The notes beneath the pieces were generated by a model, which was not told the DNA's origin, did no database searches, and worked only from the letters and a program-made list of their open reading frames with translations. A stretch of 64,000 bases of DNA from Tannerellaceae bacterium. Lineage in GTDB: Bacteria > Bacteroidota > Bacteroidia > Bacteroidales > Tannerellaceae. The stretch lies in NCBI GenBank assembly GCA_031280435.1, contig JAITGS010000046.1, positions 16,469-80,468 of the forward strand, read 5' to 3'. How positions within the stretch are numbered: the first letter of the stretch is position 1; every line of letters begins with the position of its first letter. Below, in pieces: positions 1 through 4,632 of the stretch. Made by a program: the position numbers and the translations under genes.

Positions 1-492
1 TAACTGCCCTTATTTTGAAGGGTAAAAACAACTTTGCCACCACCGGATAAACCCTTTCGTCGGTTGTAACTGCCCTTATTTTGAAGGGTAAAAACAACTC
101 GCCTAAGAATGGAAGCCACTAAATTCATGTTGTAACTGCCCTTATTTTGCAGGGTAAAAACAACTAATATAAGCTTGGGACACACCCGTAGCTTGTTGTA
201 ACTGCCCTTATTTTGAAGGGTAAAAACAACGCTGTCCTACCGTTACGTCAATTAATCTTGGTTGTAACTGCCCTTATTTTGAAAGGTAAAAACAACCCAT
301 ACGCTTTTACGGTTGCGTTGCCCCAGTTGTAACTGCCCTTATTTTGAAGGGTAAAAACAACTTGCAGTAGGAATACTGGGTCGAGAGAGTGTTGTAACTG
401 CCCTTCTGTTGAAGGGTAAAAACAACTAATGCAGGCTCAAACCCGTCAGACGCGCCGTTGTAACTGCCCTTATTTTGAAGGGTAAAAACAAC
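1..492 (+). CRISPR. CRISPR array, right-hand end, probable type VI-B (Cas13b) class
   Basis: Repeat GTTGTAACTGCCCTTATTTTGAAGGGTAAAAACAAC (36 nt) at 1-32 (truncated by window), 63-98, 129-164, 195-230, 261-296, 326-361, 391-426, 457-492. Unique spacers of 29-30 nt, e.g. 99-128 TCGCCTAAGAATGGAAGCCACTAAATTCAT. The repeat has GTTGT/ACAAC ends and a CCCTT/AAGGG stem. Repeat layout and 30-nt spacers match remembered Cas13b direct repeats (GTTG...AAAGGTAAAAACAAC type). The cas genes are not in the window. Confidence 0.95.
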
Positions 493-668
493 TTTTATAA
501 CAACAGCGGCGTCTTTTTTTGAGCCATGCCTTCAGGGGTGCCTTAAATTTCAGGCTGCGGCCGAATTTGCTGCGTGATCGGGTAAATGTATGCTTGGGGC
601 GTCTTGTCTCATTTTGTTATTGCTTGACAATATGGCTATTGCGGCTTTGCGGATGAGGAAAATGACAT

Positions 669-992
669 CCCCGCGAACATTTCGGGAGCCCCCGCGATGA
701 TTTCGGGAGCCCCCGCGATGATTTCGGGAGCCCCCGCGATGATTTTGGGAGCCCCCGCGAACATTTCGGGAGCCCCCGCGATGATTTTGGGAGCCCCCGC
801 GAACATTTCGGGAGCCCCCGCGAACATTTTGGGAGCCCCCGCGAACATTTCGGGAGCCCCCGCGAACATTTTGGGAGCCCCCGCGAACATTTTGGGAGCC
901 CCCGCGAACATTTTGGGAGCCCCCGCGAACATTTCGGGAACCCCCGCGATGATTTTGGGAGCCCCCGCGAACATTTCGGGAACCCCCGCGGC
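669..992. repeat. Tandem array, 21-bp unit (GGGAGCCCCCGCGAACATTTC), about 15-16 copies
   Basis: Read directly; variants AAC/ATG and TTTC/TTTT at two fixed positions. Both strands stay open because 21 is a multiple of 3. Confidence 0.97.
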
Positions 993-1132
993 AGGTTTTG
1001 ATGCTCCCTGAAAACCTTCAGGTGATGCGGATTACTTGATGGGGAAGTTGTTTGGCCGCGCGGATGGGGGGCGCTGCAATGCAGGCGTCGTGCATGCAGT
1101 ATTGTTGCAAGGCGGCTTTGCGTTTGGGGAGG

Positions 1133-4149: not shown

Positions 4150-4260
4150 ATTCAGCCCGCAAAACAGGTCATGAGGCTGATGTGCGGGGCGAGGCGTTGT
4201 GCGTAGAGACGCGATGCATCGCGTCTCTACATTTTGGACACGACCTGTTTGGGGCGGGAG
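4150..4260. repeat. Nested palindromic intergenic element
   Basis: Perfect 28-bp palindrome GTAGAGACGCGATGCATCGCGTCTCTAC (4203-4230) flanked by inverted arms CCCGCAAAACAGGTCATG (about 4156-4173) and CACGACCTGTTTGGGGCGGG (about 4239-4259). Confidence 0.85.
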
Positions 4261-4316
4261 AACGCCTGCGGCAAGGCCCTCCGTGATGAGTTCATAACAG
4301 ACGGAAAATCGTTTTT

Positions 4317-4590
4317 GGAGCCCCTCCTTTTCCGTCGAGGAGCCTCCAAAAAAAAAATTTGGGGCCTCCTCGACGGAAAAGGAGCCTCCGAAAAAAAATT
4401 TGGAGCCTCCTCGACGGAAAAGGAGCCTCCAAAAAAAAATTTTGGAGCCTCCTCGAAGGAAAAGGAGCCTCCAAAAAAAAAATTGGAGCCTCCTCGAAGG
4501 AAAAGGAGCCTCCAAAAAAAAAATTTGGAGCCTCCTCGACGAAAAAAAACCGCCAAAAAAAATTTTTGGAGCCTCCTCGACGGAAAAGAA
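4317..4590. repeat. Tandem array, 41/42-bp unit (GGAGCCTCCTCGACGGAAAAGGAGCCTCCAAAAAAAAATTT)
   Basis: GCCTCCTCGA at 4364, 4405, 4447, 4488, 4530, 4571 (spacing 41, 42, 41, 42, 41). Confidence 0.96.
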
Positions 4591-4632
4591 ACAAAGGGAT
4601 TTTAACAATATAATATATAAGAAGGCTATTAT

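Follow-up and report, generated by a model that had tools for sequence, protein, structure and literature searches.

The window analysed here is a 64,000-nt stretch of DNA (genome G000, contig C88, 16469-80468; window base 1 is C88:16469) that opens inside a CRISPR array, which raises the question of which CRISPR-Cas system this array belongs to and why its first repeat departs from the others. At the left end of the window, eight copies of GTTGTAACTGCCCTTATTTTGAAGGGTAAAAACAAC recur with a period of 65-66 nt and enclose seven spacers of 29-30 nt; the leftmost copy lacks its GTTG because the window edge cuts inside repeat 7. The complete array (C88:16073-16960) extends left beyond the window and comprises 14 repeats and 13 spacers, all spacers being 29-30 nt long, with 0-2 changes in 13 of the 14 repeats and one degenerate repeat. 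The repeats, their spacing, and the spacers bear out the original prediction of a CRISPR array with a 36-nt GTTG...CAAC repeat. Folding of the repeat RNA, which had been proposed as a check, predicted a stable hairpin (-12.2 kcal/mol, z -4.1; 0 of 200 shuffles were as stable) and a weaker fold for the complement strand (-9.0). Among the repeats other than the first, the weakest predicted fold was -5.6 kcal/mol. The coordinates of the features are given in Table 1.

Table 1. Features of the locus; positions are those of the window unless a contig is named
Feature	Position	Strand	Basis or remark
Repeats 7-14 (distal half) of the VI-B2 CRISPR array	1..492	+	Repeat and contig analysis
Canonical 36-nt direct repeat, one copy	63..98	+	Basal GUUGU/ACAAC stem and apical stem hairpin (predicted)
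Other full repeat copies in the window	starts 129, 195, 261, 326, 391, 457	+	Same consensus
Spacer 11	297..325	+	Reverse complement reads WGNATVKAY
Last (distal) repeat	457..492	+	Matches the consensus exactly
cas13b, 1159 aa	C88:11914-15393	+	PADLOC PDLC01469, HEPN motifs; left of the window
csx28, 221 aa	C88:15395-16060	+	NF040556, PDB 8gi1; left of the window

The genes beside the array were then considered. The order is cas13b, csx28, array, all on one strand; csx28 begins one base past the cas13b stop codon, and 12 nt separate its end from the first repeat. The Cas13b protein matched the PADLOC Cas13b model PDLC01469 (E 3e-68) and carries two R-x4-H HEPN motifs near its ends (RNLNSH, residues 96-101, and RNVAMH, residues 1064-1069). 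Both motifs (R96-H101 and R1064-H1069) are also present in a 54% identical relative, and across six aligned Cas13b proteins R96, H101, and N1065 were invariant. Csx28 matched NCBIfam NF040556 with 60.7 bits (cut-off 50) and PDB 8gi1 with an E value of 1.9e-9. No Cas9 or Class 1 effector was found in the locus, and no cas1 or cas2 was found in C88:1-17000. The cas13b gene that had been expected just left of the window was thus present there with both HEPN motifs, and the proposed type VI-B identity is supported by the upstream Cas13b and Csx28, the array, and the lack of a Cas9 or Class 1 effector in the locus. Either csx27 or csx28 had been thought possible; the accessory gene is csx28, which places the locus in subtype VI-B2.

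If the array instead belonged to another system (type II-C or orphan) and only resembled VI-B in its repeat, this would agree with the GTTGT end shared by the II-C repeats of related species (PMC8092290) and with the type II adaptation genes of this genome. However, the array has cas13b and csx28 next to it on the same strand, an arrangement that recurs in a relative; such an identity is hardly credible and is refuted by the gene content of the locus. The whole is very probably explained by a type VI-B2 CRISPR-Cas locus reading cas13b, csx28, leader, and array on the plus strand, and these four elements probably form one transcript.

The nearest relative found was the Cas13b of Tannerella sp. 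MAG Im510_bin93 (G105, JAISNP010000093.1), which is 54% identical and whose Csx28 is 55% identical; it was the only other genome among 125 of the family in which relatives of this Cas13b were detected. A whole-genome pattern scan with the Cas13b protein alone as the query gave no match, and the same scan with the two-member alignment returned the Tannerella MAG only. The profile of these two sequences gave no match in the PDB at E<=10, whereas a six-member Cas13b profile reached 6aay, 6dtd, and PspCas13b (8wf8). Identity to four other Bacteroidales Cas13b proteins was 16-19%, and the general Cas13b model PDLC02153 scored 46.6 bits here versus 571-850 bits for those four. A tblastn search of plasmids with a related Cas13b gave no match. 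Judged from these sequence comparisons, the protein belongs to a divergent branch of a known type, VI-B2. Since it is far from the characterised Cas13b proteins, we infer its putative RNA-cleaving activity from family membership.

Cas13b loci later revealed by array DNA had escaped searches of the order with P0001 and PDLC01469, and these protein searches therefore understate the frequency of VI-B systems. Array DNA led to the Bacteroidales Cas13b loci L042/L043 (G193), L041 (G177), L046 (G236), and L040 (G294), none of which had been picked up when these genomes were searched with proteins and profiles. G294 has csx27 upstream according to PADLOC, and the csx27-like gene of G236 is recognised from sequence resemblance alone. 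In G111 (L019:1-826), a csx28 fragment at the contig end accompanies a VI-B array of six repeats, the last of which carries paired changes (GTCGT/ACGGC) that preserve the basal stem. Other short repetitive DNA was also noted. Directly to the right of the array under study, a 21-bp unit (GAACATTTTGGGAGCCCCCGC type) is repeated about 16 times at window positions 636-1011, where both strands are open as 7-residue repeats and the DNA looks intergenic. More such stretches lie between genes of the same genome (window 4227-4605, and L026:2155-2646 with 41-bp units), and one lies at a contig end of the Tannerella MAG (L012:1-200).

The spacers were compared with 50,697 phage and 72,556 plasmid records, as originally suggested, and no target was found among them. 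Spacer 4, the only spacer with a target by alignment, matched 27 of 29 bases in a genome of the same genus (G004) with an E value of 1.5e-4, a per-genome value that amounts to an expectation of about 0.02 across all 125 genomes searched. The target falls within a VYGNA-repeat gene on the minus strand; this gene is described as a phage beta-solenoid gene and has relatives in 70 phage records, including a Bacteroides phage. Its neighbours encode ERF, a RecE-like exonuclease, NinB, and a helicase, which indicates a prophage replication block. RNA targeting needs a crRNA antisense to the target mRNA. Since spacer 4 reads on the plus strand, opposite to the gene, a crRNA transcribed from left to right would be antisense to the phage mRNA. 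The reverse complement of spacer 11 matches the motif of the same target gene in the same orientation, which is a motif resemblance and not an alignment. A crRNA with a 5′ spacer and a 3′ repeat, antisense to its target, fits spacer 4 at 27/29 bases and spacer 11 by motif only. Processing of crRNA, RNA cleavage, and the action of Csx28 are known for the family. Base-pairing of crRNAs with phage mRNA would here activate the HEPN RNase of Cas13b, which may then cut RNA indiscriminately, and Csx28, a putative membrane protein, would reinforce the response.

With regard to spacer acquisition, two type II adaptation genes lie at the start of contig C97 of the same genome (C97:1-768, L026): a cas1 truncated by the contig start, so that its 3′ end alone is present, and a cas2 that is complete. 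No complete cas1 was found in the assembly, which is 83% complete, and a search for cas9 gave no match, the control for the cas9 model being weak; cas9 may have fallen into an assembly gap. In Flavobacterium columnare, new spacers enter a VI-B array through II-C Cas1 acting in trans (PMC8092290). By analogy, type II Cas1-Cas2 encoded at another site of this genome probably provide the present array with its spacers in trans.

The degenerate repeat, an unexpected feature, is the leader-side one, AATATTTTCACCCTTATTTTGAAGGGTAAAAACAAC, in which changes affect 8 of the 10 5′ bases and no base of the remaining 26 (probability of such a placement, 1.5e-6). With its 5′ arm lost, the basal stem is predicted not to form. 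The first repeat of G105 shows 4/10 changed bases and none elsewhere, that of G294 (VI-B1, csx27; 29-repeat array) shows 8/10 and two elsewhere, and that of G111 is damaged throughout. When the consensus repeat was swapped into first place here, the predicted basal stem was 0.91-0.97 at leader lengths of 20-120. Behind the native leaders of all four damaged loci, the swapped-in consensus gave 0.78-0.97 at most leader lengths, with lower values in G105 and G294 when the leader was short in some cases, and the actual first repeats gave predicted values of <=0.13. G177 and G193 have an intact first repeat whose fold the leader is predicted to abolish, a hairpin of the P. gingivalis kind (PMC13187072), and G182 has neither a damaged first repeat nor a predicted leader hairpin. 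By predicted folds, the first repeat is thus disabled in six of seven VI-B loci through two means; these loci (the present one, G105, G294, G111, G177, G193, and G182) were selected by search returns, are in some cases cut by contig ends, and are too few for a rule. A special pairing between the leader and the mutated arm was considered and dropped, as a fraction of 0.07-0.16 of shuffled leaders pair as well.

According to PMC13187072, a leader hairpin over the foldable first repeat abolishes its fold in P. gingivalis VI-B, a spacerless guide is able to weaken Cas13b defence, and a mutational counterpart of the hairpin is recounted for type II-C; the portion of its main text at hand makes no mention of 5′-arm loss in VI-B first repeats. 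A leader-repeat hairpin of this kind is not predicted for the present locus, where the swapped-in consensus folds. Because crRNAs would here be of the spacer-repeat form, the first repeat could yield only a spacerless guide. Across the seven loci, we infer by analogy that the lost 5′ arm may be the mutational counterpart of the leader-repeat hairpin, and a first repeat without it would give no spacerless ('extraneous') crRNA from the leader. We tentatively suggest, short of favouring it, that VI-B systems silence the first-repeat crRNA by either the leader-repeat hairpin (known in P. gingivalis) or a first repeat whose own 5′ arm has been lost. Under the second of these, the array would grow elsewhere than at the first repeat, or its growth would have stopped.

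Two other readings of the degenerate repeat were considered. The cas-proximal end could be the old end, with spacers added at the right (window 492) and the first repeat a decayed terminal one. Of the two terminal repeats, the right one is perfect and the left one degenerate, and the adaptation genes found are type II only, II-C arrays growing at the last repeat according to PMC13187072. Degenerate repeats are distal in G193, G182, and, mildly, G177, an opposite pattern suggesting that polarity might differ between lineages. However, a 12-nt block of the left flank recurs in the G105 leader (10/11 with G294), whereas right flanks compared likewise had nothing in common, which argues for a left leader; the block overlaps the end of csx28 here and lies outside the gene in G105. 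F. columnare VI-B arrays also acquire spacers at the leader side and are transcribed from the leader (PMC8092290). This reversal of polarity is doubtful. It is unlikely that the array is instead frozen, with no further spacer acquisition and a first repeat lost by neutral drift. The present first repeat cannot be the template of repeat 2, whose 5′ arm is intact, and a complete cas1 is absent from the assembly, as a frozen array would allow; but cas13b and csx28 are intact, the HEPN residues are retained, every other repeat still folds, and the same kind of 5′-arm loss occurs in the long array of G294.

The locus adds a divergent Cas13b-Csx28 pair without a solved relative close in sequence, and two of its native spacers point to a single phage gene family. 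Should a larger set of loci show the same first-repeat pattern, 5′-arm loss would give Cas13 systems a second means of avoiding a self-inhibiting guide, and the site at which such arrays take up new spacers would come into question.

Compared with known systems, the locus shares the cas13b-csx28-array order with Tannerella MAG Im510_bin93 (L012/L020), whose repeats differ mainly in the apical stem and whose array is shorter (9 repeats), with a first repeat that also lacks the 5′ GTTG in a milder form. The VI-B2 locus of P. gingivalis AJW4, as described in PMC13187072, has the same genes in the same order, csx28, 36-nt repeats, 30-nt spacers, and a leader likewise placed between csx28 and the array; its leader-repeat hairpin silences a foldable first repeat, whereas here the first repeat itself lacks the 5′ arm. 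Cas13b shares two near-terminal HEPN motifs and a length of about 1100-1200 aa with Bergeyella zoohelcum 6aay, 6dtd, and PspCas13b 8wf8, although these structures were unmatched at E<=10 by this protein and its relative alone. Csx28 has an N-terminal hydrophobic segment (by eye) and a homologous C-terminal region in common with 8gi1; it is 221 aa long versus 183 aa and carries R-x5-H in place of the R-x4-H of 8gi1, with an R that is not conserved in the G105 relative.
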